DNA of 64,000 nt, taken from the NCBI RefSeq assembly GCF_029962835.1, contig NC_080574.1:20372001-20436000 (forward strand), given 5' to 3'. Shown piece after piece: positions 30,021-59,125 of the stretch. The translations under genes were made by a program, and so were the position numbers. A model generated the notes under the pieces. That model did not search any database. It was not told where the DNA came from and saw only the letters and a program-made list of their open reading frames with translations. The first letter of the stretch is position 1. Every line of letters begins with the position of its first letter. This stretch comes from Magnolia sinica. Lineage: Eukaryota; Streptophyta; Magnoliopsida; Magnoliales; Magnoliaceae.

Positions 30021-30532
30021 TCGGGACGCGGTTTGGCTGATGACCTGAACACCAACCAGCTGGCTGATGTCAAAATTTCGTGGGCCCCACCATGATGTAT
30101 TTGTCTTATCCATGCTGTCCATCCACTTTTCTAGATAATTTTAGTATATGAACCTAAAAATAAGATAGATCCAAAACTTAATAGGACCACACCACATGAA
30201 ATAGTAGGAGAATGATGTCCACCGTTGAAACCTTCCGAAGTTCGGCAGTGATGTTTATTTGACCTGGATGAAGGTAAAACACAAATATCAGCTCAGTCCA
30301 AAACTTTTGTGGGCCCTAAGAAGATTTCAACGGTAATCATTCAATCCCTACTGTTTCTTGGTTGTGGTCCACTTTAGTTTTTAATCTGACTCATTTTTCG
30401 GCTTATTTCCTAAACTTATCTGGAAAAATGTATGGACGGCGTCGATAAAACAAATACGTCATGGTGGGCCCACAGAGCTTTGACAGCAGCTAGCTCGCTG
30501 GTGTTCGGGTCACCAGCCAAACCGCGTCCCGA
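30021..30532. mobile_element. hairpin MITE 1, MULE-like ends
   Basis: Terminal inverted repeats TCGGGACGCGGTTTGGCTG (30021) and CAGCCAAACCGCGTCCCGA (ending 30532) match perfectly. The inverted similarity continues inward (GTGGGCCCCACCATGATG against CATGGTGGGCCCAC), so the whole 0.5 kb can fold. The flanks GATCTATCG and GATATATTG match at 7 of 9 positions and may be an old Mutator-type 9-bp duplication. It is non-coding. Confidence 0.8.
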
Positions 30533-30539
30533 TATATTG

Positions 30540-31568
30540 TGGCAAATTAACACGATGATCGTAGATATTATAAATTTATAATAGTGTTAAGATGATCTTA
30601 TCTAGTTCGTCGCGGAAAATGACTCCACTACCCTTCCTCCAGGAGAGAAGAACCGGAATACAGTAGAGACATCTTTCTACCGTACACGTGGCATGGTGAT
30701 GCATTAATCGGGTCGGTCCAACCATGCTTGGTCTATCTTTTTTAAAATCACCCCCACCAGCAGATAACCAATGGCACTTATATTAACTAGTTCTGTTTTA
30801 AGCCGTTGGTTTGAAGCGTGTTCATCAGACGGATAGAATCATGTGATATGTGTCTATCGTTAATTATCTGACATCCATAGTGGTCGACTGGATGAGAGGT
30901 TCTGATTGATTCATCAACCTTCCTTGTTTTTAGCCCACCGTACTCGGGTTCTTACGGCTCTACCTTCTCATCCCTCGAGAGGAAGAGATCTGAAACTAGG
31001 ATACAATCAAACACTAGGTCGGTGATGGATGGGCCCCACACGTAACAACCGTTCGATCGAGATTGGATCGCTTTTGATAATCGATTACGTCGAAAATTAG
31101 GTGCACGTGATTGCTCCAGATCACTCTCCTACCGTATATTCGGGAAAGGCGACTGTTTTGTCGGAGATGTGGATACTGTGGATTTGTGAATGTGGGTAGA
31201 GCTTTACACGAACCGAGTCAACTCAATTAACTGGTTCCACTGGTTTAATAAAGTTCAACTTGATTGGCCTTGTACTTGGCTTCCGACTCAGTTGAGCTAA
31301 TATTTTAGAACGTCTAAAATTTTGAGTTCAGTCCAAGCTCGACTCGGCTTGGTGCATGGCTCGAACCTGACTCGGTTTGATTCAAATCGAGCTCAACTCG
31401 TTCAATTCGGTATAAATATCTGACTTGAGCTACTGAGCAAACTGTGCCTAGTTGGATAGTTAGGTTCGAGGACCATGCTGAGCCGAGTTCGAGCTAGGGT
31501 TAGCTACTAGCCAAGTTGAGCCAAGCTATACCACGGTTAACTCAGTTCGACTTGTGTACAATTCTAAC
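30540..31568. other. intergenic, including a degenerate GAGCTCGACTCG-type repeat
   Basis: 30540-31190 shows nothing I recognise. 31195-31560 is made of variants of GAGTCGAGCTC, GACTCGGTT and AAGCTCGACTC, a word pattern also seen at 46.1 and 50.5 kb and typical of one plant MITE group. Confidence 0.45.
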
Positions 31569-31970
31569 TGTGGGGCCTCCGTGTTATGTCTTTTATATCC
31601 ATGCTGTCCATTCATTTTGCTAGCTCAAAAAAAGAAGCAGATCCAAATATCAGGTGAACCACACATACCATAAGAAACAATGGTGGTTGAACACCTGCTT
31701 TTGAAAACTTATTGGGCCACAAAAGTTTTGAATCAAGCTGACGTATGTGTCTTCCCTTTGTTTAGGTTTGTGCAACCTTATCAATAGGTTGGATTGTTGG
31801 ATGACCAACAAACATTAGTTTTTTAACTGTGGGCGTTCAATCACCACTATTTTATGTGATGTGGTCCACCTAAGTTTGGTTTTGCTTCATTGTTCAGGTC
31901 ATGTCTTAAAAAGAGATGGGAAAATGGATTCATGGTGTGGATATAAAATACATACATCACAATGGTCTTG
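31569..31970. mobile_element. hairpin MITE 2, diverged core
   Basis: It carries the shared core words in order: TCCATGCTGTCCATTCATTT, AGCAGATCCAAATATCAGGTG, a middle with ATCAAGCTGACG, then the complementary arm (GATGTGGTCCACCTAAG). Terminal repeats have decayed. Confidence 0.6.
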
Positions 31971-32079
31971 AAGTCATAAATTTGCAGTCTCATTTAAAAC
32001 ATATCCCATTAAGGTGGATCCCATAGTCTCATGCCCGTTGAACTTAGTGATCCCAGATCCATTGAATTTGCAGTCCCAT

Positions 32080-32520
32080 GGAAAGCATGTTGGAAAGTTG
32101 GGATGCAAATTGCAGAGTGACCCAAGCATCATGGAGTTAAGTGGTGGGATTTGCTTAGGTCACGTGTTAGAGATGGGGCTACATAAATCACGGTTGAAAG
32201 TTGTTAGATCTAGTACCATGTCATCTTTAGCGGTAGCACATGCATGACTCAATCAAATCCCACCGTGTATGTTAGAATACTGTTAGGTTTAATACCATGC
32301 CATATCTAGCAGCAGCACATGACTCAATCAAATCTAGTCGCTTCCTAGTACAACCTAGCTATGTTGGTGTCACCATGCAATCCAAATTTTAAAAGTTGTT
32401 AGTTTGAATATGCATTCAACTGGGTACATACTTGACAATGACATGCGACCCAATCAAATCCTGCCATGGCCTAATACTTCTGAGGCCACATGGTATTGGG
32501 GTCACCATGCAATCCCATAT
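32080..32520 (+). repeat. diverged tandem repeat, unit about 80-130 bp
   Basis: Three to four irregular units share GACTCAATCAAATC / GACCCAATCAAATCCTG and GGTGTCACCATGCAATCC / GGGGTCACCATGCAATCCC. A further copy lies at about 41000-41125. Confidence 0.55.
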
Positions 32521-32639
32521 GCATATTCAGCTATATGGGTCCACATGGATGGCACAAGAACTGGTTCCCTTGGCAAGCAATGCATCGTTCAACCATGCAG
32601 ACAAGATTGCGATTGATTTGCCTTTAAAATAAATTTCTA

Positions 32640-33765
32640 TATAATTGCTTTTGGTTATGTTCAGACACATCTATTACATATTAGCATACAACAAAAGATG
32701 GTGTATATTCAGTATACTACTGTTGAATCATTGTCCTATGATGCTGATGAACCCCACCACTTGTTAGTGGAGTGTGGGGCAACAACAGAAGCATATGCAC
32801 CACACACAAAGGAATATACGTTATAGACCCATCGCTACAACATAATTAGATCCAAGCCATTCATAGGTAGGGTACACCCTTAATATACTTTGTGTTGGGG
32901 TCCCTCCTTATGTGGAGGTGGGACCCATGTGTGGGTTTAATAGTTTCTTTTACACGTGTGTGTGTGGGGGTGTATGTGCGTGGGTTGGACTAATATTAAC
33001 AACATTTTAATAATTTTCTATTTTGGAGATGAAGAGGAGAAAGAAGAAAAAAGTAGTTTTATAAAAGAAGACCAAAAACCTTCTGCCACCAAAATCTTCC
33101 TATCCGAGTTCGTGAGGCTCAATCTATAATATTGGTTTCTTCAATTGTCTTCTTTAAGAGTTATGCTGGAGGTTTTATACAATTTCTAGTTAGCGAGAGA
33201 GCTCATTTCCTTCATTATTTCTTATAATTTATATTTAGACTACATATTTGGATATTCAATAAAGGTTAGTCTTTTGATGATTTACTTTCATCATCTCTAG
33301 CATAGTGATACCTGGCTAGGACCCATGAATTTTCCATTCGCATAAAAATTTGTCTTTCTTGCTCTTAACTTACATGATTTACCAGTTTGTGTTAAAAGTA
33401 ATTATTATCCATTAAATCTTATATATTATTAATTCCATTGATTTATATATATATATAGAGAGGAAAGGTGTATGGTTTCCCAACGAATGCTATTACTTGA
33501 TTCATGTCAAACTTTAATGTTAATCAATTCATCTAGTAATTTCTTTTTCAAACCGCCTATTTTCTGCTATGAAAGTTTGACCTGCCCAAATGGTTGACCA
33601 ACAATATGTTTTTATCCATGGTATGCAAGGTATAGCTTACAGGACAAATAGCTTAGTTTTTTACACATACATGGTCCGCATAGATCTTATTTATTTGAAG
33701 CGTGGTTATTTTCTTTAGAAAATAGGACTAAAGGACTATTTATGTAACTTTGGAGGAATGGCATT
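32640..33765. other. intergenic, nothing recognised
   Basis: AT-rich sequence with a GTGTGTGTGGGGGTGT stretch near 32960 and a short TA repeat near 33450. No gene or clear element end. Confidence 0.5.
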
Positions 33766-34290
33766 TTGTGGTCCCATGGGAGCCCTCAGTAGCTATCTTT
33801 ATGATGTATACATTGTACACTATCTATCCATTCGGTGAGATCATTTTAGACGGAAGCCCAAAAATTGAAGTAGATCCAAAGCTCAAGTAAAGCCATTACG
33901 TGAAATAGTAAGGACAATGACACCCACTATTGAAAACTTCCTAGGGCCCACCGTACTCATTATTTGAGATCCAACCTATTCATAAGTTCACATGGATATG
34001 GACAAAGGGAAAACACAAAATTAGCTTCATCGAAAACTTCTATGGCCCCAAGACATTTTTAATGTTATGCATTCAATCCCTACTATTTTTTGTGGTGGGG
34101 TCTACTTAAGCTTTGGATCAACCTTATTCTTTGGCTCACACCCTAAAATGATCTCTTTAAATGGATGGATGGTGTGGATATAAAACATATATCATGGTGG
34201 GGCCCACAAAACATGATGAGATCACTTAAATAGTGTGATAGCTACCGAAGCTGTGGTAGCTGGTCCAAGTCCGTCTCCATGCCATTTCTA
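33766..34290. mobile_element. hairpin MITE 3
   Basis: The shared hairpin core is complete: left arm GTAGATCCAAAGCTCAAG, right arm CTTAAGCTTTGGATCAACC and ATATCATGGTGGGGCCCAC. Near the ends AGTAGCTATC and GATAGCTACC are inverted, and a GGACTTGG-type end lies on the right (about 34265-34275, minus strand). Confidence 0.65.
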
Positions 34291-34424
34291 CACATGTGGC
34301 CGACATGGAATAAATTAAAGACCATTTTGTTTCCAATGGTGAGTGGGCCCTGATCCAAACTAGAGTGTTGGGATGATCCTAGCCCTTTAATTGGTAGGCA
34401 TGCAAATAGACACTAAAGGGCCAT

Positions 34425-34965
34425 TTGAATCATAAGCTACTTAAGATAAGCAACTTATGTCCTAAGTAGCTTATTTTGATTTATACTAATTAATCAAATA
34501 AGTATATTTGGTAATTAAACAACACACTTATTACTTCCATCTCTACAATTTATGAAAAGTAGAAAAGTTAAAAAAAAGTTGAAGTGATTAATTAACTTTA
34601 AGTTAAAAATTACTTATAACTAATAATAAATTAAACTTATTTATCTGAAATAAATTACTTATCTACTCTTATAAGTAGAAAAAAGTAACTTATTTAGTGG
34701 TGTCATAGGTTGATTAAGATAAATTACTTTTGCCACAAGTAGCTTATTGCAGTTTCCACTCATTAAGAAGTAAAATATATATGATAAACAACATATTTCT
34801 CAACTTCTCCTCTTTTTATTTCTTTTATGTCTTTCTTTGGCAACTTATGAAAAAAAAAAGAACCTAGAAGAGTTGGTTGAAGTGATTATATACTTTTTAG
34901 TAAGAAACTTATAACTAATTATAAACCAAACCTGCTTGTGTGAAATAAGTTACTTATGTGGTGGC
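34425..34965 (+). repeat. two direct copies of a TAAGTAGCTTA-type MITE
   Basis: Two related blocks of about 260 bp (34430-34690 and 34715-34965) share GTTGAAGTGATTA, ACTTATAACTAAT and GAAATAARTTACTTAT. The first starts AAGGGCCATTTGAATCATAAGC, a hAT-like end. This looks like tandem or nested insertion of the same family. Confidence 0.5.
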
Positions 34966-35528
34966 ATCTAAGCTGGACTAAAAGACGAATAGGCTCAGAG
35001 AAGGTTTTGTTTACTATAAGAAGGTTAGTCCAATCAGAACAAGTTTTGCTCAGTAGCCAATCAACAGCGGGTGTGATTTGGCATCTTCATACACATCTGC
35101 CACGTGTATGGTACACACATACAGCACGGAAATGCCAGATCGTATCTTCAAAAAATAGTTTTCTTTTCCTCTGGCAACTCAGCTTCAATGGTCTGTCGGT
35201 GCCTCTGGGGCCCACATGCTGAGCGTTCCAACAATCCGAACCGTGCATGTTTTGGACTCTGTGCTACATGGGTACTGTAGGAAACATGGGCTGAATAGCT
35301 GATTCTCATCATCACTACCTTTGATGATTTCTTAATGGTTCTCATTCAACTCTAAAAATCAAAGCCCGTGGTTATCGATAAAACATGATCATGAGAAAAT
35401 AACTTATTTATAGTAGCAAAGAGAATATTGACGGTTCAAATATTGGACCATTTCAGCACACGGGATTCATGGGTGGCGACACACGCTGGATCTTAGTCGC
35501 GATGGAGGCAAACCAAACTCTTTAAAAA

Positions 35529-36042
35529 GGGAGCGGATTAGGTGTTTCCCCGGTAACACCTTAGTTGGTGTTACCCTTACCATGGGGCCCACCTTGATGA
35601 TTTATTGTATATCCACGCCCTCCATCCGTTTTTACGTCCCATTTTAGGACCTGGTCCCAAAAGTTAAGTAGATCTAAATCTCAGTTGGACCACACCACAG
35701 GAAAAAGTGGTGACTAAACGCCAACCATTAAAAAACTTAGGCCCACCGTAACAAAATATGTAGTTTCTATGTGCCATCCAAGCCGTTGATAAGGTCAATA
35801 AGTCCTGGATGAAGGGAAAATATAAAATATCATCTTGATCCAAAACCTTTGTGGCCTACAAGAAGTTTTTGATAGTCCTTCACCAAAACTTTCAAGCGGT
35901 GTGGTCCATAAGAGATTTGGATCTTCTTAATTTTAGGGATTACGTCTTTAAATGGTATGAAAAAACGGATGGAGGGCTTGGATATACAATACATTCATCA
36001 AGGTGGGCCCCACACGGTAAGGGTAACACCTAATCCACTCCC
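35529..36042. mobile_element. hairpin MITE 4, MULE-type with perfect 9-bp duplication
   Basis: Terminal repeats GGGAGCGGATTAGGTGTT and AACACCTAATCCACTCCC differ at one position. They are flanked by the exact 9-bp duplication CTTTAAAAA (35520-35528 and 36043-36051), the length made by Mutator-like transposases. The inside is the shared fold-back core. Non-coding, 514 bp. Confidence 0.88.
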
Positions 36043-36533
36043 CTTTAAAAAATTATGGTTCATAAATTTTTTTTCTTGCCAACATATTGGAATTATTTTG
36101 TATGGCCTTAATAAAAATGTTATTTTACTTCCATTTGTGGATAATGCACAGTTCAGCGGGTCACAAGATGGGAGTATTTGTTTTCTTTTTTTTTCTTTTT
36201 GTTACCATTATTTTTGGGAAGCCAAAATAAGGTTGGAAACCGAGATCTAACTCATTTTAGGCAGCTTTTCCTTTCCAAGCTGATAAATGAGAGAGAGAGA
36301 TAGATTAGCATTGAAGTTTGGGTATTTTCGTAAAGAAGTCTGTAAAAAGGCCCAAAGAGATCTCTTATATTACATGGGAGTTTGGGTGTTTTTGTAGTTA
36401 TGTCTCAAAAGGGTCCAAAATAAATAAAAATAAATAAAGAAGTCAGTTTGGAATAGACCACTCACATCCATCCAAAAGGGCGTTTAGATGATTGTGGTAA
36501 ATCTACCTTATGTTATTTGGATCCCCTGGAAAT

Positions 36534-37039
36534 GGACTTGGATTGCCTGTGTGCTGCTGGAAATGTTCTGTGGCTCACTATGATGTGCTTGTTTTTTCCA
36601 TGCCGTCTATCCATTTTGCCAGCTCATTTTATGGCATGATCTAAAAAATGAGGCATATACAAATATCAGGTGGACCACACCATAAGAAATAGTGATGATT
36701 TAATGCTCACCATTAAAAACTTCTTTAGGGATACAAACGTTTTGGATCAAGCTGATACTTGAATTTTTTCCTTCATCCAGGTCTGTGTGACCTGATCAAA
36801 AGGTCGGATGGCAAGTAAACATTACAGTTGGCCCTATGAAGTTTTTAATAGTGGGCGTTCAGCTACCATTGTTTCCTGTGGGTCTTCCCCATTTTCTGGC
36901 TCATGCCCTAAAATGAGCTGTGTTAAAATGGAAGGTTGGTGTGGATAAAACACAAACATCATGATGGGACCACAGAGCTTTTACCGCAGCACATAACACC
37001 AAGGTGGGGGCTGTGTGCTACACTACGCAATCCGAGTCC
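36534..37039. mobile_element. hairpin MITE 5, MULE-like
   Basis: Terminal repeats GGACTTGGATTGC (left) and GCAATCCGAGTCC (right), with flanks CCTGGAAAT and CTTGGAAAC (7 of 9 match) as a probable old 9-bp duplication. The core has the usual words, including GGCATGATCTAAAAAATGAG and its complement. Confidence 0.8.
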
Positions 37040-37854
37040 CTTGGAAACATGCATTTTCATCTGAAATAGGACAACCTCGTCAGAAACAGGAAAAAAAAAA
37101 AAAGAAAAAAAAAAAGAAGGTAGAAAATATCCAGTGTTGTCTGTTGCACGGGTGATTATTGGTCCTGGTAAAATGACCAAAGCGGTTAAAGGGCGTCCCT
37201 CGTCTCTGTTGTTGGCAGCTTAACAAGATTCCAACACTTCCTTCGACTTCACCAATGGACGGCTCTTGGCCTATCTCCTCTCATTCCCTCCACCCCTTTT
37301 TTACTCTCCCCCTATCTACATTCCAAAGGTCCAAATGCGTATATTCTATTTATATCTTGTGTCTATGCTCCGATCCACGTTTTTTTTTACCATTTGTGGT
37401 GACTCGCACATTACCCACGTTGCAAACATATATGCAAATCCCAATCCCGACCGTCTAAATTATGGGTCCAATTGTGGATGGGGTATCTTTCAAAAATCGT
37501 ACTCATCAGACGATCACAACCATCCAATTATCGCCAGTGAAATGTACGTTCGAGGAAAAAAAAGAGTCCAACAGCCTACTGAATTCAACAGCCCATGTCA
37601 GATGTTGAAGATGGTCTAATCAATATGATATTTAGGGATATTTTTCCATCCACAAAAAAAGGTTGGACTGAATTTCCACTGTTGGGATTGACTTACATGT
37701 ATGCAACGTGTGAAATGGATGAGTCACCACCATCTAAAAGATGTGGTAGGACAGATTTATAGTAGTCTGTCCCACTGCGTCTTTTGTTGGCTTGTTAGTC
37801 CTTTGGATTTTGATTTCTACAAATACCTCATCTTACTCCTCAGCTTTTTGAAAT
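37040..37854. promoter_or_regulatory. upstream region of the GA 20-oxidase gene
   Basis: About 0.8 kb between MITE 5 and the gene. It holds an A-rich run at 37089-37120 and otherwise unique-looking sequence. No convincing TATA box was found; a weak AT-rich patch lies near 37815-37835. The MITE therefore sits within a distance where it could affect the promoter, which is inference. Confidence 0.4.
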
Positions 37855-39804
37855 GTGTCTCACCCCATGGACTCGAGTGCCACCACCCTCCTCTCTTCTC
37901 CTCCCTTAGAACTTCAAAACCACAATGACCACACTTCCATGGTTTTCGACCCTTCTTTCATTGAAAAGCAGCCCAACATACCTGGAGAGTTCATCTGGCC
38001 ACAGGGAGATCGTGTCCACACATTAGAAGAACTTAATGAACCAGTGGTAGACCTCCAAGATTTCCTCAGAGGCGACAAGGCCGCGACATCTCGTGCCATA
38101 AGCCTTGTTAGCGAAGCATGCCAACGGCATGGATTCTTCCAAGTCACCAATCACGGTGTGGATGCATCACTCATTCGGGAGGCACGTGACCACATAGGTT
38201 CCTTCTTCAAGCTGCCACTTACCCACAAACTCCGAGCCCGGAGAAAGCCCGGTAGCATGTGGGGGTATGCAGGCGCGCACGCGGATCGGTTCACATCCAA
38301 ACTGCCTTGGAAAGAAACTCTCTCTTTTGGGTATCATGAAAACGGGCCTCATGACATCGTGGCTGACTACTTCACGTCTGTATTGGGAGAAGAATCTGAG
38401 CAAACAGGGTAAGTTTCACACTTGAATTGTATTACACTAACTTGCATTGATTCAAAAATCTAATGAAGGATATCTATTGGGTCCTTACTCTTGCTCGGGG
38501 GGTACCCGGTCAAGGGTTCGAGTACCCATAGGTGGTGAAATTCCACTAGCGTGAGTGTGTGGGGTGTGTGTGCGCTTGTATTTAAAATAAAAAAAAATAA
38601 AAATAAATGAAGGATATCTAACATAACTAGGACTTGTTTATGTAGGTTGATTTACCAAAGATACTGTGAAGCAATGAAGGAACTTTCCCTAGTGATTATG
38701 GAACTACTTGCTATAAGCTTGGGAGTGGATCGCTTGCACTTCAAGAGATTCTTTCAAGATAGTAGCTCCATCATGAGATGCAATTACTACCCTCCTTGCC
38801 AGGAGCCATCGCTCACGCTTGGAACTGGGCCCCACTGCGATCCAACTTCGCTTACCATTCTTCATCAGGATGAAGTGGGGGGCCTACAAGTATTCTCCAA
38901 TAATAAATGGCACTCCATTCGACCGAGGCCGGAAGCTCTAGTCATCAACATCGGTGACACATTCATGGTAAATTCATCTTCTTCTTCTTTAGCAACAAGA
39001 TTAGCTACTGAAATGACTAATACTCTATTTAAGCTACTGAAATTACTAATACGCTATTTGGGTAGTTGATTATCAATGAGACATGACATTATCATCGTTA
39101 GACGACATGATCTAGTGTTTCGGTGCACTTTATTACTGTGATTAAGAGACAATATTCATATAATTGCTAATGAGGGTTTTAATCCATGTATGAAAAGATA
39201 CATTAGGAAGGGAAGGATGAAAGTGAGCCAGCATTCTCACTAGGCCCCTGTCTAACAGTCAAAGACAAATTACTGTAATCATGTCTGCCGAAGCACAAAT
39301 CTGCAAATTGGGTAATTAAGTATCATGGAGATGAGATGATTTGATGGAGAGACGGTGCAATCAAATGTTGGGGTGTGCTTAACTAGCTGCAATTTAAGAG
39401 AGGATAATCATATTGGTAATGTGGGTTTTGATCAAAGTAGAAAAAGACACAAGGAAATGAAGGATACATGTATGGTAGTGGTTTGAGTGGGCCATCTTCT
39501 ATCATTTATATATTAATGGTATGTTGTTTGGTTGTTGTAGGCGTTGTCAAATGGGACCTACAAGAGCTGCCTGCATAGGGCAGTGGTGAACAGACACAAG
39601 GAGAGGATATCCCTAGCTTTCTTCCTGTGCCCAAAAGAAGACAAGGTGGTGAGCCCACCACAGGATCTTGTGGGCAGAGATGGTCCAAGGAAGTACCCGG
39701 ATTTCACATGGTCCGCTTTGCTAGAGTTCACACAAAAGCACTACAGAGCGGACATAAGAACACTTCAAAGCTTCACCAAATGGCTTCTCTCCCCAACAAC
39801 CTAA
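37855..39804 (+). CDS. GA20ox: gibberellin 20-oxidase (3 exons, 379 aa)
   Basis: A cytosolic 2-oxoglutarate/Fe(II) dioxygenase that oxidises C-20 in successive steps (GA12 to GA9, GA53 to GA20), a control point of gibberellin synthesis. Exons 37855-38408, 38646-38967 and 39541-39804 join in frame, with stop TAA 39802-39804. Visible family marks: LPWKET (150-155, the GA20ox substrate motif), NYYPPC (231-236), iron ligands H248, D250 and H304, and 2-oxoglutarate contacts R314 and S316 (RIS). The C-terminal [17 protein letters not shown] is typical of the subfamily. Two start codons are possible, 37855 (MSHPMDSS) or 37867 (MDSS); nothing in the sequence decides. Three exons and about 380 residues are normal. 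The gene looks intact. The paralogue number cannot be assigned. Confidence 0.96.
38477..38605 (+). mobile_element. tRNA-derived SINE in GA20ox intron 1
   Basis: A 129-bp insertion bounded by a perfect 15-bp duplication, AATGAAGGATATCTA, at 38462-38476 and 38606-38620. It contains a B-box-like GGTCAAGGGTTCGAGTACCC, the family word GGTGGTGAAATTCCAC, a GTGTGTGTG part and an A-rich tail. The 5' end is probably shortened, since no good A box is visible. The intact duplication implies fairly recent insertion. Confidence 0.88.
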
Positions 39805-40528: not shown

Positions 40529-40547
40529 CATCTAGCAAAAGAAAACA

Positions 40548-43330: not shown

Positions 43331-43699
43331 GACCAATGGATTGGATTACATAAATTACAAAATTGTCAAAATGTTTTCTTCTTTTTCAAAAAAAAAGCTC
43401 GTTTCCACCACCGTCTCCACAATGGTTGGATGCTCGAAAAATCAGTCCGATCCAACCATGATATCCACAGCAGAGCCATTCATCTAACCCGTGAATTACG
43501 TGAGCTGTGATGACCCAAAAAATTAAATTAATCCAAATGTCAATATCTACCACGTGAAATTAAGTTTTTGGATGGTTTTCTATGGTTGGGCGGTACGATA
43601 TTGTCTGTATTCCATCCAACCCGTCAATTACCTGATCCAGCAATGATGATGTGAGGGCTCAAAAGTCATTCCTATAGAATCATTAGATGGAAAAACAAA

Positions 43700-43828
43700 G
43701 AAAATCAATGGACGAACATCCAATGACTTCCAAATTCGTGAAGAAAATAGATGGACGAACATCCAATGACTTCCAAATTCGTGTAGAAAATAAATGGACG
43801 AACATCCAATGACTTCCAAATTCGTGTG
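43700..43828 (+). repeat. 43-bp minisatellite, three units
   Basis: Units start at 43700, 43743 and 43786, each containing ATGGACGAACATCCAATGAC. They are almost identical, with changes only near the joints. Confidence 0.93.
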
Positions 43829-43829
43829 G

Positions 43830-45520
43830 CGGCCTAACGTTGAATCGGTCTAATTTCTGGGGCGTCCTAATTATATGACCCGGCGACTCTTGTGGACGGT
43901 TTAGATTGGCCCTCACGCAACACTTATAGAATAAGCTAATTCTAGACTTTTGTAGTCCTCCTGTTTATGTCTGTCGTCTGGTCCTTTGTGACAGAGGGTG
44001 ATACCACTCAGGATGATCCTAGCCATTCAATACTTGGACTTCTACCGTTGAGAGTGGAATGTGGCTGTATTTCTTTTTAATCTTCCTTTTCTTAGCCAAC
44101 CATCAAAGAAGGAATAGGACCTTCAAGTGTGGGAATGGGCCATTCTCATAGTCAGACGGGTTGTATCAGATCAATGGCCTGAGTCTCCCATCCGTACGGA
44201 CTTCGGTGCCTTAACAAATGGTACACATCCGGACACGTAAGACCTCTCCCACGTGCATCCCACGTGCGAAACCTCTCCACTTGCGGGATGTAGTAAGCAA
44301 GCAGAACCACCTCCTTTTTCACTTTTTTGGGACATACGGAGTTACGATTTAGCAAACCATGGTTAGTATGCTGACGCACAAAGTCCGTACATTCGGGTCC
44401 ATTATTTTGTGATCCAGACCGTTGATCTTAGAGAAGTCACCGTAGATAGTTTGTAGACCAAAAGATTCAATCTTAGAGCTTTCTTTTATTTTGAAATTTT
44501 CTCCTAGTCATCTTTTTGTAGGCCACTGATGAAAGGGCCAGGAATAACCGATAAGGGAACCGTTGATATCAGGGAAAGGAAAATGAAAATGAAAAGGACA
44601 GGAGGTTTAGAGGGGATTGTCGCTACTCGAGAGTGCAGCTTTCAATCTCTGAAATAAAACAAAACTTCTCCTTTTCTCAAAAAAATTGCACATTCATGCC
44701 AAAACAACGTGCCCTTCAATTTCACTCTTCCACATGACCTCCTCCTCTTTTGTTACTGTCCCACTCACGGACTGTGCTAGTCAGACGTATGGTGTGCCTA
44801 CAACGATAATCAATCACAAGTTGGGCAGAATATCGTGCATCAGATCCACTCCGTCCATCAGGTGTGCCACCACATTTTCACCATGGATCCAGAAAAGTAA
44901 GTCCGATCTAAGGCTTATCTGGGTCACATCATAGGGAGTGGTGTAAAATCATGCCTAAAAACTATAAAGTTACGTGGTGTGGTCCACATGAGTCATGTAA
45001 TTTTCTGTTATCAGCTAATGCATTCATCCTAGTGTGGCACGTCAAATGAGTGGATTAGATGGCATGTGAGTACTATATTGGACAGTTTTAATAGTCTAAC
45101 TTTCCATTGCAAATATTCCTGATGGGCCTATGCGCCCTGATTTTTGGGCCACGTGTATGGTGAATCTTGGGTAGATCAGGTTTTTTCACATGTTACATTC
45201 TTCAGAGATTTTGATTTGTATTTAGATTGGTATTATATTTAATTGAAGTCACCACCTGGCAATAACCACATCTTCACACAGTTGAATAGATCCTATGCAA
45301 ATATTATGAGAGGAGATGATCCGGAGATTTTTAGTTATAAAATGACTCCTTGATATATGACTAGAGATTCGGGACAAGAGATTATGGTTACAGAGAGGGA
45401 AGGAGTTAGGCATTTATTCTACCTGTAAAAAGCATATGGTCTCTACTTCACAGGATTAGACATGCTCTTGAGGATGTGGATGGCTCTTGTGCACAGATGA
45501 TAGAATAGTGTGTGGTGTGT
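43830..45520. other. intergenic, nothing recognised
   Basis: No gene or complete element was seen. It contains a doublet of CCCACGTGC (near 44250-44270), a G-box-like word, in sequence without other regulatory context. Confidence 0.4.
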
Positions 45521-46559: not shown

Positions 46560-47215
46560 AACTGTACCATAAAATCCGTGGGGACCACCATGATGGTCAT
46601 GGAAGAAAAAATCAAACGGATCATATTATCAGATTGGATACAAGTTTCGAATCAACGGATCACCAACATTCTGAATCAACATTATTTATGGCCCATATAT
46701 TGATCTAATAATTCCCATTTTTTAGAATTATGATCATTATGGTGGGGCTTAAAGTTTTCATGGTATGGATTTATTTATAAAAATGGAATGTTGGTGGAAA
46801 TGATGGTACAACACTGCAAGTGTGGTGCCGTTGACTGTTGGTGAACAATTCTCAGACCAAAATACCTTTCTCAAAATGAACGTTCCACGCTATGTACCAA
46901 GCATGGTGAATTGACATCAACAAGTTCTTTGGATCAAACTATGAGGTATGTGTTATATCCAAACCGTCCATCCATTTGGAGAGCTTGTCTTAAGAGTTAA
47001 GCCAAAAAAAAAAAGAAAAAAAGACAGATCTAAAGATCAGTTGGATCACACTACAAAAAACAGTGGGGGATTGATTGTTTAACATTGAACCCTTTTTCAA
47101 ATCACAGAAGTTTCGGATCAATATGAAATTTGTTTTTCCACTTCATCCATGTATTTTTAACATTATTAACAGATTAGATGGAAAATAAATGTTATGGCCC
47201 ATGTAACTTTGATCT
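46560..47215. mobile_element. partial hairpin MITE copies
   Basis: 46560-46810 shows a small diverged copy (GTGGGGACCACCATGATGG against CATTATGGTGGGGCTT). 46905-47215 is the left arm and middle of another copy (AACCGTCCATCCATTTGGAG, AAGATCAGTTGGATCACAC). Its right arm is missing; the fold-back element starts at 47300. Confidence 0.5.
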
Positions 47216-47299: not shown

Positions 47300-49651
47300 G
47301 AGCACGGATTAAGTACTTCCTCGCCCGTGCAGAGCTCGGGACGGGCTATACATGTACCCCATTAATTGGTGGTGGAGAGCGGTTACGTCAGAAGGCAGAG
47401 TACACGTAAGCAAACGGAGGCGTTAGCCCCGATGTCTCCTCTTTTTCGGTTTTTTTACCTTTTTTTCCCACATAGATTTCTTGTGAAAGCCTTTCGCCTG
47501 GGAACTCAGGTGGGACCCACTGTCATGATGTTTGTGAGAAATCTTTCTTGTCCATCAGTTTTGTGATTTCATTTTAGGATATGATGCCAAAAATGAACCG
47601 AATCCAATGCTCAAGTGGACCGAAAACGTGATAATTGAATATACACAATTGAAATATTATGGGGCCACGGAAGTTTTGAATCATGCTAATATTTTTGTTT
47701 TCGGTTCATCCAGTTGTAATTACATTATTAACGGTATAGATGGCATAAAAACATCACTGTCAAACGCAGGGAGGTTTCAAGAGTAGGAATTTCCCTAACC
47801 ATCTTTTCCTTTATTACGGCCCACATGAGGATTGGATACGGTTCATTTTTTACATCATGCTCTAAAATGAAATAAAAAAATGGATGGACAGGGATGATTT
47901 CTCAAAAACATCATAATGGGCCCCACCTAGGTTCCCAGCGCAGGAACTTCATGTGAAAGGCTTTTAGAGGAAGGGAGTGGATTAGGTACTTCCAGACCAT
48001 CCAAATTATTGAGCTGAACGGTGTTAGACTTTTTCAATTGTTTAACCCCATTTAAATCTAAACCGTCTAAATTGTTGAGCTAACTTTTGATAGAGTATAA
48101 TTTTAAAGAAAAAGTACATTGAGATGATAATAATACCCATGTTATGTTTACTGTCCAATTTTTAACCGCTCAGTATTTTGCTTTTAACCATCTATTTTCT
48201 ACCAACTAAATTGATGGCCAGAATTGCTTCATCATTATAAATCTAGAAATATGCTCCATCCATAATCGGACGCAACTTAAGCTGTCGGATTATCACCCTT
48301 TTAACATTGGTCCCACAGCTTGAACAATTTTTTTTTCTTTGAGAAATCGTAACCACTGTGCACAATTTTGTGAGTGAATCGTACCTATCTAATTACTTGT
48401 ATTTGGATTTTGTGGAATGCACATTATCTATTAAGTGCGCGAATTGGGTAGATGAAGTGACGTAACCCAGTTCTATGGGCCCCACCATGATATATGTTTT
48501 GTATCCACACAGTCCATCAATTTGGAGACATCATATTAGGGCATGATCTAAACAATGAGTTAGATCCAAATCTCAAGTGGACCCCATCATAGAAAACAGT
48601 GGGGAGAGTGACGCCCACCATTAAAAAGTTCTAATGGCGACAAAAGTTTTCCATCAAGTTGATATTTGTGTTTTCCCTTCTTTCATGTTTGAGTTAATAC
48701 ATGAACAGGTTGAATCTCAAATAAACATCATGGTAGACCTTCGGAAGGTTTCAACGATGGGCGTCACTCTCCCCACTGTTTTCTGTGGTGGGGTCCACTC
48801 TAGACTTGGATTTGCCTTATTCTTTGGATCATGCCCTAAAATGATCCCTCCAAATGTATGGACGATGTGGATTCAACACATACATCATGGTGGGGCCCAC
48901 AGAACTTAGCGACGTCACTTTAGTGGTGAGTCTCGCTACGCAACCTGTCATTATCCAATCCACGTCCGGGAAAAAAGGATGCCAATTTCTTGCCAAAGCC
49001 TTTCACAGGAAGTTCCTGCACTAGGAACCCAGGTAGGGCCCACTATGATGTTTTTGAGAAATCATCCTCATCCTTCCGTTTTTTATTTCATTTTAGGACA
49101 TGATGTAAAAAATGAACTGCATCCAATGCTCAAGTGAGCCGTAATAAAGGAAAAGATGGTTAGGGAAATTCCTACCCTTGAAACCTCCCTGCGTTTGACA
49201 GTGATGTTTATATGCCATATATGCCGTTAATAATGTAATTACAACTAGATGAACTGAAAACAAAAATATTAATATGATTCAAAACTTTCGTGGCCCCATG
49301 AATATTTCAACTGTGTACATTCAATTATCACATTTTCTGTACACTTGGGCATTGGATAGGGTTCATTTTTGGCATCATGTCCTAAAATGAAATCACAAAA
49401 CTAATGGACGGGAAGGATTTCTGACAAACATCACAGTGGGTCCCACCTGGGTTCCTAGGCGAAAGGCTTTTATAAGAAATTCGTGTCGAAAAAAAGGTAA
49501 AAAAAGGGAAAAAGAGGAGACGTATGGGCTAACACCTCCGTTTGCTTACATGTCCTCCGCCTTCTGACGTAACTGCTCTCCACCAATTAATGGGGTACAT
49601 GTATAGCCTGTCCCAAGCTCTGCACGGCCAGGGAAGTACCTAATCCGCGCC
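47300..49651. mobile_element. 2.35-kb fold-back element with arms of about 660 bp
   Basis: 47300-47964 and 48994-49651 are long inverted copies of each other, separated by a loop of about 1.03 kb. Outer ends are GAGCACGGATTAAGTACTTCC and GGAAGTACCTAATCCGCGCC. Flanks are the exact 10-bp duplication CTAGCTAGCC (47290-47299 and 49652-49661), a Mutator-like length. Each arm consists of about 185 bp of end sequence plus an inner hairpin MITE (47486-47964 and 48995-49470) with AAAGCCTTTC ends. The loop carries another hairpin MITE. No transposase is visible, so it is non-autonomous. Confidence 0.85.
48440..48968. mobile_element. hairpin MITE 6, inside the fold-back loop
   Basis: The core is complete (GGGCCCCACCATGATATATG against TACATCATGGTGGGGCCCAC). 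Near the ends GAAGTGACGTAACCCAGTTC and GAACTTAGCGACGTCAC are inverted. On the right CCAATCCACGTCC gives a GGACGTGGATTGG-type end. A possible partner GGGAGTGGATTAGGTACTTCC lies at 47973, near the left end of the loop. Confidence 0.65.
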
Positions 49652-49672
49652 CTAGCTAGCCTAGCTTGCGTG

Positions 49673-50169
49673 GTAGTGTGGGACGCAGATCAGCTACTCA
49701 CAGGTTGAATAGCTAGACTCCCTACTGAAGTGATGTGGCCAAGTTCTGTGGGACCCACCATGATATATGTGTTGTATCCGCACCGTCCATTCATTTGGAG
49801 ACATCAATGTAGGGTAGGAACCAAAGAATGAGTCAGATCCAAAGCTCAAATGAACCCCACCACAGAAAACAGTGGAGAGAGTGACGCCCACCATTAAAAT
49901 TTCTAAGGCCCACAAAAGTTTTCGATCAAACTGAAATTTGTGTTTTCCCTTCTTTCATGTTAGGAGTCACTCTTCCCACTGTTTTCTATGGTGGGGTCCA
50001 CTCCAAATCTAGATCTGACTTATTCTTTGTCTCATGGCCTAAAATGATCTCTACAAATTGATGGACGGTGTGGATATAACACATACATCATGTTTGGTCT
50101 CATAGAACCTGGTAACGTCACTTCAATAGGAGTCTCTCTGGCTGCTCAACTTGTCACTTGTCAGTACAG
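49673..50169. mobile_element. hairpin MITE 7, with 11-bp flanking duplication
   Basis: Long imperfect inverted ends (GGTTGAATAGCTAGACTCCC against the complement of GGAGTCTCTCTGGCTGCTCA, then AAGTGATGTGGCCAAGTTC) enclose the shared core. The exact direct repeat TAGCTTGCGTG at 49662-49672 and 50170-50180 is the likely target duplication. It abuts the duplication of the fold-back element. A GGGACGCAGATCAGC end is visible on the left. Confidence 0.72.
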
Positions 50170-50249
50170 TAGCTTGCGTGTGATACAATTAATTTGAAGT
50201 TTATCCAGTATAGTTGGCGTCTAATATATTGTGAATGCATGTGGGCCCA

Positions 50250-50380
50250 CCGTGAATGCATGTGATTGATCCACACCGTCCATTCAATTTTCCAGATGAT
50301 TTTAGTGGTTGAACCCAAAATTTATGCATATCCAAAGCTCAAGTGGACCATACCATTGGAAAAAGTAGAAGTACTGATGA
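50250..50380. mobile_element. hairpin MITE fragment (left arm only)
   Basis: GTGGGCCCACCGTGAATGC, CCACACCGTCCATTCAATTT and ATCCAAAGCTCAAGTGGACC occur in family order. The right arm is missing. A short direct repeat (ATCCAATGRCTCTATTTTAAC) follows at about 50390 and 50450. Confidence 0.6.
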
Positions 50381-50459
50381 TACAAACATCCAATGACTCT
50401 ATTTTAACCTCAGCACTTTATTTCTCAACAGTTAAAGATGCAAGCATCCAATGGCTCTA

Positions 50460-51480: not shown

Positions 51481-52577
51481 GACAAGTCCATCCGGGCCTG
51501 CGTGGACCAGATCCGTCCAGGCAGTGGCGCCAGGACCAGGACACAATCCGCGTCCGACCGAATCGGCTCCCAGTTACGGCGTCGTTTCCGCTCCGCTTAC
51601 TGGCCCCTTACGTTAGTTTTGCACGCTTAAAAGATGGTGGTGTTTAACCCTCTTCACATGTGGCACTGATATACACTTATCAATACCATCCAAATTGTGG
51701 GCCCCATTTGTATGGATCATACCTCTAAAATTACACTCATCAATAGATCTTGACCATCTAATTAATGTTATCAAATGAATGGTTAACAGTAAGACAGTGA
51801 TTGGTCCACAAATCAGATAGTTATCTTCTCAGTGGTCCACAAATGCGACTTTAGCACTGTATCTGAGAATAAAAACATCATTTCTTTTTCATTGATGTAT
51901 GTGTGCATTTCTTGTGTATATGCATATGGAGGTTTGCTAAGCCCATCAGATATGCTAGCATGGCAGATAGGTGCAATATCCAAGCCGTTCATCAGGTGAG
52001 TCGGGCCATTTAAATGTTCTCTTCCTAAAATGAAGGTAAATTGTGCCCATCTGACTAGTGGATTGCCTGATTGTTGGGCAAGAAGGTCCGGATCTTGTGC
52101 CTATGTGCTATGTTGCTGGCACATATGTTGGGTCGTACATAGAGTTGTATTATGTGTGTGTGGATTATAGGTTTCACCAGAGTGGACAGCGGAATTGAAC
52201 TTTTTCTCCGTAAATTAAAACTCATAATGTCTCCTTCTAGGACCATACATCGATCATGTCAGATTTCGAAAAATCAATCTGAGCAGATAAATTTTGATTA
52301 TATCTTTGTGTGATTAGTTGTAAGGTAGAAGAATCTATATATGCCGATGCTAATCGTCCAACATAGGATGTCTTTTCCCTATTTATCCCAGTTTGAAGAA
52401 GTGGAAAAACCATCATCGAATCATCTAGTCAGTGAAAGGGACACCACCCATACTAGTGAACCACACATGATCATGACACGTGTAGAAAAGTGGCTAGAGG
52501 AGAAGATGATCTCTCCACTCTCTTTATTCTCTCTATCTCCAATTCTCTTACTTGTCCAAGGGGTTGGATATTCAGGG

Positions 52578-52622
<45 letters not shown>

Positions 52623-53505: not shown

Positions 53506-53518
53506 TTCAAACATGATA

Positions 53519-53650: not shown

Positions 53651-53663
53651 TTCAAACATGATA

Positions 53664-54640
53664 CTTGGATCCATGGATCACAACTCTTCCTAGTCAATGA
53701 CTAGCTACTATGTCTAAAATCCCCAATTATCAAAAACTATTAGATTGACTCCACTCCACTAGCCCATGTCCATATAAGTTCCAGGTAAAACCAAACACCA
53801 AGGCATATTAAATGGTCCATATGATACCCATGGTTATCATGCTCTACAACTGAAATCATCTCTGTTTCATTCACATTGTTAGTGGATTATGGCTCAAATT
53901 AATTTTCCAAGCATGTACTCCAACAATGGGATTAACAACTCTGCTTTATGCATGTAGATAAGCTTGATTTTTTTTTTTTTTTCGCACTAGGTGTCCTTCA
54001 TGGGAAGCACTTGTTGCACCATTTGAATGTCATACACACACCATAACAAGCCCCACAAGAGGAATCAACATGTTAACTTGGCAGGTAAGGCCAATATACA
54101 CTCATTTGTTGTGAAATTATAAAGAATATGAAATAGGAAGGAAGAAAAAAGAAAAAAGATGCTCAACCGTGAACTGCAGTAAATAACAACACCTTTGGCT
54201 TGTTTCATATATTTATACTGAATTACTATTTAAAATAAAAAAAATTATATTGATTTGATTTACTTTTAGTGATATATGATAATTAAATATACACATTAAA
54301 ATCAAATGGGATAGTAGAAGATTTTACAAATAAATACTTATGAATGAAATTGTTGTTTTTTTTATTTGTTCCTTTATCTATAAGGTCCTTAAAATTTTTC
54401 TATGAAGTACCACCCTAGTAGTAGAAATGGACCATGAGCCAAACCTTTAGAAGATGGGTCCATTGTAGGTGGTGGGTGACTGGCTAAGATCCTCCAATTT
54501 AAAAGATGAGAAGATTTTTGGATGATGGTCCATTTGCAAATGCCATCAGATCAACAGTATGTGGATCACTATACAATATCTCCCACTTACATCGAGCTGT
54601 AATTATATCTATTCGAGTTGTACTATATGATGGGATGATT
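53664..54640. other. intergenic, nothing recognised
   Basis: AT-rich sequence with a T run near 53970. No gene or element end was seen. Confidence 0.45.
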
Positions 54641-54780
54641 CCTCTTGATTTGAAGTTTGGGTTAATCAATTTATGACCGTCCATAGAAATTATCGAATCT
54701 ATTTTACCATTGATGGCTTCCTTCCAAGAGGCAACATCAACCATTGTCATTGTTAGATAAACATAAAGGGTCACTTTCAC
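54640..54780 (-). pseudogene. small Ty1/copia reverse-transcriptase relic
   Basis: The minus strand reads SWKEAINGKIDSI, the start of the copia reverse transcriptase region. It is a short broken fossil without visible LTRs. Confidence 0.5.
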
Positions 54781-54964
54781 TTCTTAGTTTAGCGTTATCT
54801 ATTCTTTTGTTTTATTCATGAAAATTGATATGATAAACCATGGAATACCAGCTATGAATAAGCAAGAGCCAAGTGGCAGATTACATCATTTTATAAAGAA
54901 AAATCCTAAACCTTTTTTTCCCACATGGCATGTTGTGATTGGTGGCTTTATCACACTGCTTTCA

Positions 54965-55375
54965 CCATAGCTTGGATGCGGATTGTGTATTAACTCAGTG
55001 GGGTCCACTGTGATGTCTGTGTCTTATCCACACCGTCCATCTGTTTTTCCAGCTCATTTTAGGGACTGAGCTCAAAATTGAAGCTTATATCCAAAGCTCA
55101 AGAGGAATAAACTACAAGAAAAGGTGGGGATAATGACCTCCACCATTAAAACCTTCACAGGGCCCACAGTTATATTTATTTGTCACCCAACCTATTCATA
55201 AGGTCATAGAGAGATGGATGAAGAGAAAACACAAATATCAAATTCATACAAAACTTCTGTCGCCCTCAAGAATATTTTGACTGTAGGCATTCGATTTCTA
55301 CAATTTCCTGTTGTGTGGTACACTTGAGCTTTTGATATGCTTAAATGTCGGGCTTATCCCTGTTAGTGAAGAACG
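54965..55375. mobile_element. hairpin MITE 8, right end truncated
   Basis: The left end is GGATGCGGATTGTGTATTAA, close to the GGACGCGGATTG-type ends of MITEs 1, 4 and 5. Then GGGGTCCACTGTGATG, CCACACCGTCCATCTGTTTT and ATCCAAAGCTCAAG follow. The right arm stops near 55375. Confidence 0.65.
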
Positions 55376-58300
55376 TGTAACTTTCCTTTCAGGCACTGAG
55401 CTTGTGCATGTAAGCACCATGGTTCATTCTTAAAAAATCTCCTCAGTTGGTCTTCTTTTATTGGCATAAAAATACAAGATTAAGAAGAAACAAACCAACA
55501 ATCCATATTCAATTGAAAAAAAGACCAAAAAATGGTTTGATGGCTAAGATCCAATTTGAGAGATTTGTTGGAAATGGTCCATCCATGATGAGGCATCTAG
55601 ATTCAGAGATGGTATTCTTCTATATGATTCTAAAACAGTCATGTTTAAAATGAATTTCTATATATTTATCCTCCAAAGCGAATCATATATGATGGAAAGT
55701 GACTTGACCGACTTGTTCTGTCTTTTGAGTAAAGTTAGGATTCGCCTGAGTTAGGACTGACTCGACCTGACTCACCTGAGATAGAGGTGACACGTGGGAT
55801 CAAACTGGATTATGTGAGTCAATTCAGACGAGTCGAGTCACATGAGATTCATCCAAGTCTTAAACCATGGTAATTAAAGAACAAAGCTACTGATTTTGCA
55901 AAAATAAGAAACCATGTTTAAGACAAAAAAGGAGGAAGATGGGGTGTATTACACTGGGTCTCACACACAAACAACCAAAATAGCTGATGAAAGTGGTTGG
56001 GACCAATGGACTGTGGCTACAGGACGTGATTTTCTGTTCTTCTACCGGACCCACCTGATCACATCTCCTCCATGTGATAATTCAGCAAGTTTCCTCTACA
56101 GTAACACCTCATTTTGTGTGTTACAAGAAACCCAATTTGTACACTTGCTTAATCATGGAAACATGTGGATGGCAGTGTCTCTCATGTTCTTAGCTTTGAT
56201 GGAACTTGGAAAAGTTGATTATGTCCCATTGTCTATATAATACAAAGCATAGCTCTTGTATCTCAACTGCCCACTTTTGGGCACTAAATTTCCAAGAAAC
56301 ACATGGACACATATGCATCAATCCATTCACACATGCATTTGCCATATACATACGTACATACATGAATTCATGTGTGTATATTATATGCATCTTTAGTATA
56401 TACAAAGCAGATAGCAATATGCCAATTTCACCCTTGCAATTAGTCTCAGAAAGGGACGCAAACTTTTGATTTAAATGGAAAATGGAATGCAGCTAGTTGT
56501 TCCACCAAGGGCATTTTCGTCATTTAAATTCTTTCATACAATTATCCTACTATTATTATTATTATTATGCAAGAAAAGCAGATGATAACGACGATGTAAA
56601 ATTCACTCTATAAATGAAAATAGTATAAAACAAGACTACTTAAAATTTGAATAGGCCACAACTTGTCAATAGGCCGGGCCTGATATTGGTTTTGGCCCGA
56701 ATTTTGAATTTTGGGCTGGGCGATCAGGATGACCCTAATCAAAATTCTATTTTTGCAGGCGCAAGCCCAGCCTATTGACTCCCTTAGCCATAACACTGGA
56801 AAAAGTAAAAATAAGCTGCCTACCATTGAGTGCCACTAGCTTTTTCTTTTTGTTTGTAGCATGTAGTTGTACATTTTTCATCTCTCTCTCTCATTCTCTC
56901 TCTCTCCATTTATGTTGCACATGCCATACCCTTTATGAATAAAGGTACTTTACTCATGTGACAGAAGTCTTACGTCCAATTTCACTGTTTGTATATTATT
57001 TAATAAATTTATGGTAGTTTGCTTAATAAATGTGATGGACCATTTAAAGACATAGAGAGACGTAGCGAAAGGATTTGAAGAAATGGTCGACATCCATTAA
57101 GAGTCCATTGCCTGAAAGAGGAGCAACATACCCCAGTGGCATCCCTCGTGCGTTTCCAGCATTTTTCGCTCTCTTCACATGTTCCCATTGAATGCTAGAA
57201 GGGGGTGATTGATAGATAGTGAGGCGTGTGGGCATCCATGTGCGTGTGCGTGCACAACATAGGTGGGACACATGCGCTGAGTTTGCGATCATAGATTCGT
57301 TTGGTGTGACTTTTTCCTGTGTTCATATAAGACCGTTCCGCCACCTTCTTGTCCACTTTATTGAAGTGACATCCACCGATTCGCTATGCCTAGTCAATCT
57401 GCTTTTGTAATCTTATTCTGATTTTTCTGATTAATTTCTTTTCTTCTATTGTTATTTTGATTGGTTTGTGTACACCCATTTTCCATTTTTGGAATTTAGT
57501 AGTACAGATGGTATAGTTAAGTAGTACCCAAAAAATAAAAAATAAAAAAGTTGTATGTGACTTAGCCCAACTTGGCTAACTCTCGACTCAGCATCGACCC
57601 AGTCGGTCTAAGTTGCCATGTCTTAAAACCATGGTGAGTTCAGATATTAAACATTTAAGTATTTTCCTTTCCAAGATGTGAATGGATCATGATCTAATTG
57701 CTTGTAAGTGTACTGAAAAAGAGAAGTAAAGAAAAATGCTTCAGTTCTGTTAGTTGCATCAGTTCAATTAGACTGTCCAATCAATTAATCTTAATTGTCC
57801 ATTAAATCAGGATATTTCTAAGGCTAGCTATACTGTAAAAATTGCACTAATCATGATCTAATCCATCCTTAATTTGGTCATATATTCAATAGCCATCCTT
57901 TTTCCCAAGTCATGGGTGGCTGTCTTTACAAAAGGTGTTCATGGTGTCTTTAACAAGTAGATATTTTGTGTAAAATGATCTTGACCGTCTATATTAAAGG
58001 TTATTGATCTAGAAGTTGTGAGAAATGCAGCTCTACTTCAAAAAAGAAAAGAAGCACGCATTTTTCGTTTGACTGCAAACTCATGAACAAAGCTGCCTTT
58101 TGCCACACCTCATGATGCATGAGCCAATCTTCACTAAAAGCCAGGCCTGTTGGCAGATGGACAGCGCCGTTTGCTCTGTGACGAGAACTGACGACAGCCA
58201 CACAATCTCCTTACAGCTTTTCCTTATGTGGTATGTAGGATGGATCACAAAGTAAGATTTGGCCTTTTGCATAGGTAAGCCCTTTTTCAGGAATCTATTA

Positions 58301-58735
58301 AATTCGGCCCACCATGGAAAATCAAGTGGTTAATATTTGTTTGATTGGTGTAATGCTTGCATGGTTGTCCACGAAATGTGAGTTGGACTTAATGAACCGT
58401 CCACATCAATGGATTGGATGGTCTAAGTGTCCCTACATAACTAAATGCAACCAGCACTATAACTTATAGTGCTCTGAGGGGACTGGACCATTTCTCTCAA
58501 TTAAAATTCATAATCTTATTTCAGATATGTTATTTTTATGTGCCATTGCCACACCTAACAACATGGTGTGGAAACCATTTCCTAGGGAATTCCTTGGAAG
58601 TATGATACAGTAGCTCATCCTTAGATTAATCTGAACCATTGATCATGTTCGCATAACATCATATAAAAGCTATGATCTTGTAATCACGCTTCATTGATGA
58701 TCCTGCCCTTTGCAATCACCCTTTAGTTCTACAGC
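55376..58735. other. intergenic, no gene recognised
   Basis: It holds GACTCGACCTGACTC-type words (about 55745-55830), an open stretch at 55914-56240 with no recognisable protein, a CT-rich patch near 56885-56905 and a small MITE at 56665-56782. The remainder shows nothing I can name. Confidence 0.45.
56665..56782. mobile_element. small MITE with GTCAATAGGC ends
   Basis: GTCAATAGGCCGGGCCTG and CAAGCCCAGCCTATTGAC form inverted ends of an element of about 118 bp. No target duplication was resolved. Confidence 0.5.
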
Positions 58736-58739
58736 TTAT

Positions 58740-59125
58740 GTTATGACTTGAGTGAAAAAATGAGCTAGATCCACAACTCAAGTGGGCCACGCCACAGGAA
58801 GTGGTGGGAATGAAACGACCACCGTTGAAATGTTCTTAGGTCCACCGTGATGTTTATATGCCATCCTACCCATTCATAGGGTGATTCCCACTGGGACGAT
58901 GGAAAAGAAAAATATAAGCTTGATCAAAACTCATGTGGGTCCCAAAAAGGTTTCAATGGCGTACATTCAATCCCCACTATTTCTTGTGGTGTGGTCCACT
59001 TGAGTTTGATCTGCCTGATTTTTTAGCACCCATTTGAACATGAGTTGGCAACTGATGGATGGAGTGGATTTTAATTTAGGCATCACAGTGGCCCCCACAC
59101 AGCTTGGGGTAACCGGGGTAAGAGG
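58740..59125. mobile_element. hairpin MITE 9, left end truncated
   Basis: TAGATCCACAACTCAAGTGG and the complementary GGTCCACTTGAGTTTGATC, with CATTCAATCCCCACTATTTC between. The right end reads ATCACAGTGGCCCCCACAC. The outer left arm is missing. Confidence 0.62.

Follow-up and report, generated by a model that had tools for sequence, protein, structure and literature searches.

How can the copies of one transposable element share a palindromic core and seemingly end in different sequences? This question was raised by the first-pass annotation of a 64-kb stretch of Magnolia sinica DNA (here referred to as the window), which described at least nine fold-back elements with a common core, listed a variety of terminal sequences, and proposed that ends had been swapped between subfamilies or that one core had been captured by several transposases.

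Copies of the family and their common core

Our searches revealed 14 clear copies and one weak copy of a single fold-back element family between 30.0 and 59.1 kb of the 64-kb window, and the predicted palindromic, fold-back core of approximately 0.4 kb is common to all of them. A single copy used as a blastn query recovered the other copies, and an nhmmer profile found 14 places in the window at E values from 1e-138 to 2e-27; this profile was built from 13 copies, whose E values are low by construction, and a fragment consisting of one arm (K50, 50212 to 50379) was outside the model. The same 13-copy profile detected the weak copy, which is strongly decayed, on the minus strand at 44838 to 45096 (E value of 4e-12), and the profile also gave a short match at 43509 to 43663 (E = 0.0002). 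Outside the interval from 30.0 to 59.1 kb, no clear copy was found in the 64-kb window, the best profile match having an E value of 0.0003; positions 1 to 30000, including a DNA polymerase exon, contained nothing better than this, and the next 29 kb contained the 14 copies.

The copies measure about 0.5 kb each. A30 (30024 to 30529, plus strand), D35 (35529 to 36042, plus strand), and E36 (36534 to 37039, minus strand) are complete. No recognisable tips were found in B31 (31565 to 31966, minus strand) and N58 (58719 to 59130, plus strand), or at the left end of C33 (33780 to 34278, plus strand). F46 (46899 to 47210, minus strand) is a half copy comprising one arm and the loop, L51 (51230 to 51555, plus strand) is another half copy, and M54 (54974 to 55370, plus strand) is truncated at the right. 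J49 (49681 to 50176, minus strand), for which no tip was recognised with confidence, is nearest to H48 (core identity of 0.85). H48 itself and two further fold-back copies, G47 and I49, lie within a composite element of 2.35 kb.

Pfam searches of the surroundings identified an exonuclease exon of a family B DNA polymerase (4618 to 4911), a reverse transcriptase on the minus strand (28544 to 29296), which we take to be of the copia type, and two exons of a 2-oxoglutarate dioxygenase (DIOX_N and 2OG-FeII_Oxy, 37852 to 39066), presumably a gibberellin oxidase. D35 and E36 (35529 to 37039) lie within about 2.3 kb upstream of the dioxygenase gene and could affect its regulation. Positions 43699 to 43827 are occupied by three tandem copies of a 43-bp unit that are 95% alike.

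A single assignment of orientations fitted 81 of the 91 pairs of copies, with nine pairs against it and one tie; six of the nine misfits involve K50, and the rest are B31/C33, J49/M54, and L51/M54. This agreement shows that an asymmetric loop is common to the copies, and the likeness of the cores is therefore not that of unrelated palindromes. Outside two close pairs, core identity ranges from 0.55 to 0.71 (13 copies, with K50 and the copy at 44838 omitted); the family is old and its copies are worn. The core looks familiar from magnoliid genomes. Exact core strings had no match in collections of viral and microbial contigs, as expected for such collections, and six core strings of 16 to 17 letters, in DNA or RNA spelling, were absent from open papers in an exact-string search. 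For six tip strings searched in the same manner, no title among the matches listed concerns transposons.

Transcripts through full copies had also been predicted to form long hairpins. RNA folding of three copies bore out this potential, yielding −260 kcal/mol for A30 (z of −22.8), −256 kcal/mol for D35 (z of −20.4), and −281 kcal/mol for H48 (z of −25.8), and these strong folds result from the inverted repeats. The window contained no Rfam match at gathering scores. A small-RNA role of the hairpin transcripts is possible.

Tips, flanking repeats and classification

The loose 12-letter end pattern proposed by the annotation, GGRNNYGGWTTR, is matched exactly 11 times in the window compared with 2.09 times on average among 100 shuffles (maximum 7), an enrichment that is partly by construction, as the pattern was read off ends in the same window. 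All 11 matches are located at tips of the family, namely, at both ends of A30 (tips GGACGCGGTTTGG), D35 (GGGAGYGGATTAGG), and E36 (GGACTYGGATTGC), at the right ends of H48 (GGACGTGGATTGG), L51 (GGACGCGGATTGTG), and the composite (tips GRGCRCGGATTARG), at the left end of M54 (GGATGCGGATTGTG), and at an inner tip of the composite at 47973. The tips of L51 and M54 match the pattern even though they were absent from the annotation's list of ends. A motif lengthened to 14 letters after the ends had been read gave 7 matches compared with 0.34 expected and, with one mismatch allowed, 24 matches compared with 10.2, half of the 24 (12) being family tips and the other 12 lying elsewhere; the 12-letter form therefore serves as the check and supplies the quoted figure. 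The right tip of C33, GGAGACGGACTTGG, fits the motif loosely, and the left tip of H48 is decayed. Our list of tip columns covers 12 of 15 ends, with the left end of H48 and both ends of J49 omitted.

Among the four elements with tip-flanking repeats, positions 1 to 14 of the tips agreed at 9.1 of 14 letters (24 comparisons, lowest 7), whereas agreement dropped to 5.9 and then 4.5 in the two adjoining 14-bp segments farther inward and was 4.3 outside the tips. The shared tip was seen in seven elements (A30, D35, E36, the composite, H48, L51, and M54). The annotated difference between copies in their outermost 15 to 50 bp is thus real for the stretch just inside the tip but was not borne out for the outermost 15 bp. 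Likewise, GGGAGCGGATTAGG, GGACTTGGATTGC, and the ends of A30 proved to be real ends, but two other sequences listed as termini did not. GAAGTGACGT, which defines the subterminal group of C33, lies inside the right tip of H48 (48954 to 48967) and inside the uncertain ends of J49, and AAAGCCTTTC lies about 180 bp inside the tips of the composite. Collectively, the many ends of the annotation mostly represent one tip combined with a variable subterminal zone, J49 being the exception.

Repeats flank the tips of four of the six elements with both ends assigned: the composite (TAGCTAGCC, 9/9), D35 (CTTTAAAAA, 9/9), E36 (CCTGGAAAT/CTTGGAAAC, 7/9), and A30 (CGATCTATCG/CGATATATTG, 8/10). The comparison of 9-mers flanking the tips allowed shifts of one base only, and among 200,000 random pairs, matches of 7/9 or better occurred at a frequency of 0.0022 and matches of 9/9 at 0.00001. 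These null values hold for 9-bp comparisons; the width of the 8/10 match at A30 was picked among several, and this match contains no exact run longer than 5. The repeat of D35 is A/T-rich and therefore constitutes weaker evidence than TAGCTAGCC. Duplications of TA or TWA, as produced by Tc1/mariner and Harbinger elements, were considered for A30 and rejected, because the 10-bp flanks are the better match and the repeats of three further elements measure 9 bp.

No flanking repeat was found for H48. J49 is accompanied by an exact 11-bp repeat, TAGCTTGCGTG, at 49662 to 49672 and 50170 to 50180, which lies 8 bp outside the assigned left tip and overlaps the right tip; its probability by chance is 0.0013 per element (4,000 random placements in 50-bp windows, six elements examined). 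This repeat may be the duplication of J49, in which case the element ends at 49673 and 50169. The ends so implied, GTAGTGTGGG and CTGTACTGAC, do not fit the shared tip, and the motif-like GGACGCAGATC then lies 9 bp inside the left one. Either the repeat is the duplication of J49 itself, whose ends would then be unusual, or it is the trace of another event, and since the implied ends lack the tip motif, it constitutes the main result against a single tip. With this reservation for J49 and H48, the 9- to 10-bp repeats at the other four elements agree with the Mutator-like transposition suggested by the annotation.

According to PMC3903597, TIR-MULEs carry long TIRs of 100 to 500 bp, and a duplication of 8 to 11 bp serves as a criterion for them. 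Duplications of this size are present at the tips of the same four of six elements, and the terminal inverted repeats have a shared tip, from which J49 departs if its 11-bp repeat is the duplication. The elements are also small and contain no detected coding sequence among the frames of at least 90 amino acids tested. At the sequence level, these features fit a Mutator-type MITE family. No Pfam transposase was found in the 20 frames tested out of the window's 55 reading frames of at least 90 amino acids, and Mutator membership therefore rests on the tips and flanking repeats. The frame at 48625 to 48906, the sole listed frame of at least 90 amino acids wholly inside the composite, had no Pfam match. 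The present family resembles Mutator-derived MITEs and TIR-MULEs in its short non-autonomous form, its inverted-repeat ends, and its 9- to 10-bp duplications; it differs in being nearly all inverted repeat and in combining conserved tips with a variable stretch just inside them.

The subterminal stretch and the composite element

Tip and core are separated by a stretch whose length ranges from 11 to 197 bp. We compared it among 15 ends of nine elements, which gave 99 end pairs between elements and 6 within elements; B31, F46, K50, N58, and the copy at 44838 have no usable tip and core boundary and were omitted. We also excluded the inner tip at 47973, counted G47 and I49 only as parts of the composite, and shifted the right end of C33 by 6 bases beforehand. 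Subterminals could be aligned above shuffles (p < 0.01) in only 8 of the 99 pairs between elements, compared with 6 of 6 within elements, and the variable zone is thus symmetric within a copy. The outer core could be aligned in all 99 pairs between elements (z > 4, mean identity of 0.70). As a control, core pieces of equal length taken 2, 40, and 80 bases into the core were alignable in 65, 58, and 36 of the 99 pairs between elements and in 5, 6, and 4 of the 6 within elements; the drop at the 80-base offset may partly result from indels that shift the pieces. When both subterminals measured at least 40 nt (52 pairs), 5 subterminal alignments were obtained compared with 47, 44, and 24 for the core pieces. 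The end pairs in these tests are mutually non-independent, and the shuffles preserve base composition only. At the level of elements, 4 of 36 pairs share subterminals (H48/J49, C33/H48, C33/J49, and A30/E36), of which A30/E36 is the weakest (arm identity of 0.68).

The composite element (47300 to 49652) is flanked on both sides by its exact 9-bp repeats and consists of two arms of approximately 665 bp, 90% alike, around a loop. Within each arm lies a complete fold-back copy, G47 (47471 to 47967, minus strand) in the left arm and I49 (48984 to 49490, plus strand) in the right arm, and the AAAGCCTTTC sequences are the subterminal parts of these two copies. The arms are identical at 154 of 176 aligned bases (6 gap positions) in the outer zone and at 433 of 478 (9 gap positions) in the fold-back zone. 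As both zones are about equally alike, a single duplicated block probably comprised the two. The arms of the inner fold-backs, with identities of 0.74 to 0.76 over 155 bp and 0.81 to 0.83 in the best local alignments, are less alike than the arms of the composite, which indicates that the inverted repeat of the core is older. H48 (48438 to 48967, minus strand), with a tip of its own, sits in the loop of the composite. Another segment of this loop, 48135 to 48274, matches positions 51698 to 51836 in inverted orientation at 65% identity and perhaps belongs to a further repeat family.

The inner tip of the composite, GGGAGTGGATTAGGTACTTCC (47973 to 47993, plus strand), has the same direction as the outer left tip and matches the outer right tip over 21 bases, apart from two differences; no flanking repeat was found for the inner part. 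TIR duplication in MULEs has been described (Ferguson and Jiang 2012, PMC3310237). Compared with the tandem-TIR MULEs of that paper, the composite is alike in that its left outer and inner tips point in the same direction and only the outer ones have a flanking repeat. However, the internal and external TIRs of those elements are similar over at least 100 bp, whereas the likeness between the inner and outer right tips of the composite extends over 21 bp and a whole fold-back copy lies between inner and outer tip.

Cores, arms and the origin of the variable ends

The two arms of a copy are on average 0.736 identical over approximately 155 bp of core, compared with 0.656 for same-side and 0.648 for opposite-side arms of different copies (nine copies with both arms, among which the arm starts of the left arms of B31 and C33 are poorly anchored, with 9 and 10 of 18 motif letters). 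Permutation of partners reached the observed identity twice in 20,000 trials, or 12 times in as many trials when I49 and J49 were left out. Counting against a simple picture, only four of the nine copies (four of seven without I49 and J49) had their own partner as the most similar opposite arm, and the partner surpassed every same-side arm in 4 of nine cases for left arms and 2 of nine for right arms, or 5 and 4 of seven without I49 and J49. The arm tree is weakly resolved; in it, G47 and I49 group by side, the outcome expected of a recent duplication. Had left and right arms parted once before the family spread and then drifted alone, same-side arms should be more alike. The greater average likeness within copies instead favours symmetric rewriting, and arm conversion or repeated re-formation of the inverted repeat would explain both this likeness and the symmetric subterminals.

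We weighed this reading against the two processes put forward by the annotation and against simple decay. Under end-swapping, subfamilies would have recombined their terminal segments so that one core travelled with several ends. The sharp differences between subterminals whose cores and tips are still alignable would accord with such recombination, as would pairs that are close in the core without common subterminals (A30/H48, J49/L51, and E36/H48 at ranks 4, 6, and 7 of 78 by core identity, and A30/J49 and E36/J49 at ranks 8 and 10). A precedent is provided by Galileo in Drosophila, some copies of which, as PMC3573991 reports, combine two TIRs of one subfamily with the internal region of another. 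Galileo likewise has long variable TIRs and a foldback form, and its terminal sequence has been exchanged and recruited; it belongs, however, to the P-element superfamily, produces 7-bp duplications, and had its exchange shown by phylogeny in the same source. In the present family, no pair was found that shares subterminals and is distant in the core (36 element pairs of the nine elements with usable ends). The sharing pairs H48/J49, C33/H48, A30/E36, and C33/J49 rank 2, 5, 9, and 12 among the 78 core identities. Distances between loops and distances between arms are correlated across nine copies (Mantel r of 0.74, p = 0.0014; without I49, r of 0.62, p = 0.006). Firm support in the core tree is limited to G47 with I49 and H48 with J49, which C33 joins at 92/90. 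Subterminal replacement between fairly close copies must have happened, and the core-close pairs without common subterminals fit rewriting while being compatible with swapping as well; on balance, we consider end-swapping unlikely.

Plain old age, with ordinary substitutions and indels eroding the subterminals and no special process at work, would suit the low core identities and the varying lengths of the subterminals. It is less probable still, because subterminals can be aligned far less often than core pieces of equal length and because the subterminals match those of their own partner arm in all six cases, which independent decay of the arms would not give. A capture of the same core by transposases of several unrelated families appears very improbable. 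The different-looking GAAGTGACGT and AAAGCCTTTC and the ends implied by J49's 11-bp repeat could be cited in its favour, but the former two lie inside the right tip of H48 and the shared-motif tips of the composite, respectively, and four elements with different subterminals carry 9- to 10-bp repeats. As the surviving tips share one motif, capture is unneeded wherever tips survive, with the off-motif repeat of J49 as the exception.

Taken together, these comparisons make it probable that the copies constitute an old non-autonomous Mutator-type (MULE) fold-back family in which one transposase lineage moved the copies and the subterminals were rewritten on both arms. A well-kept copy would consist of the shared tip of approximately 12 to 14 bp, the variable subterminal stretch, and the inverted-repeat core with its asymmetric loop. 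One MULE transposase lineage would recognise the tip and would have moved the elements, leaving the subterminal stretch free to change. Symmetric rewriting within lineages is our best reading of the aligned sequences. The hairpin arms might act as mutual templates, so that conversion or template switching in replication or gap repair would bring a change onto both arms; alternatively, the inverted repeat might have been re-formed in each lineage. We infer arm conversion from identity levels, and the more specific proposal that the family retains tip and core while hairpin-templated conversion repeatedly changes the intervening stretch on both arms at once is tentative and may well not hold. 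The composite shows another route, as an arm made up of a tip, other sequence of about 180 bp, and an entire fold-back copy is present there as one inverted block.

The family is ordinary in kind, an odd-looking member of a known transposon type. Grouping by subterminal sequence would count it as several families, whereas tip and core show one. In the composite, which is one element between the copies of a 9-bp duplication, one way of adding new ends can be seen. Should such hairpin-templated rewriting occur, changing subterminals would perhaps let the copies escape homology-based silencing or competing binding proteins while retaining recognition by the transposase. If symmetric rewriting holds true genome-wide, the family would provide a natural test of how an element can renew its ends without losing the transposase site.
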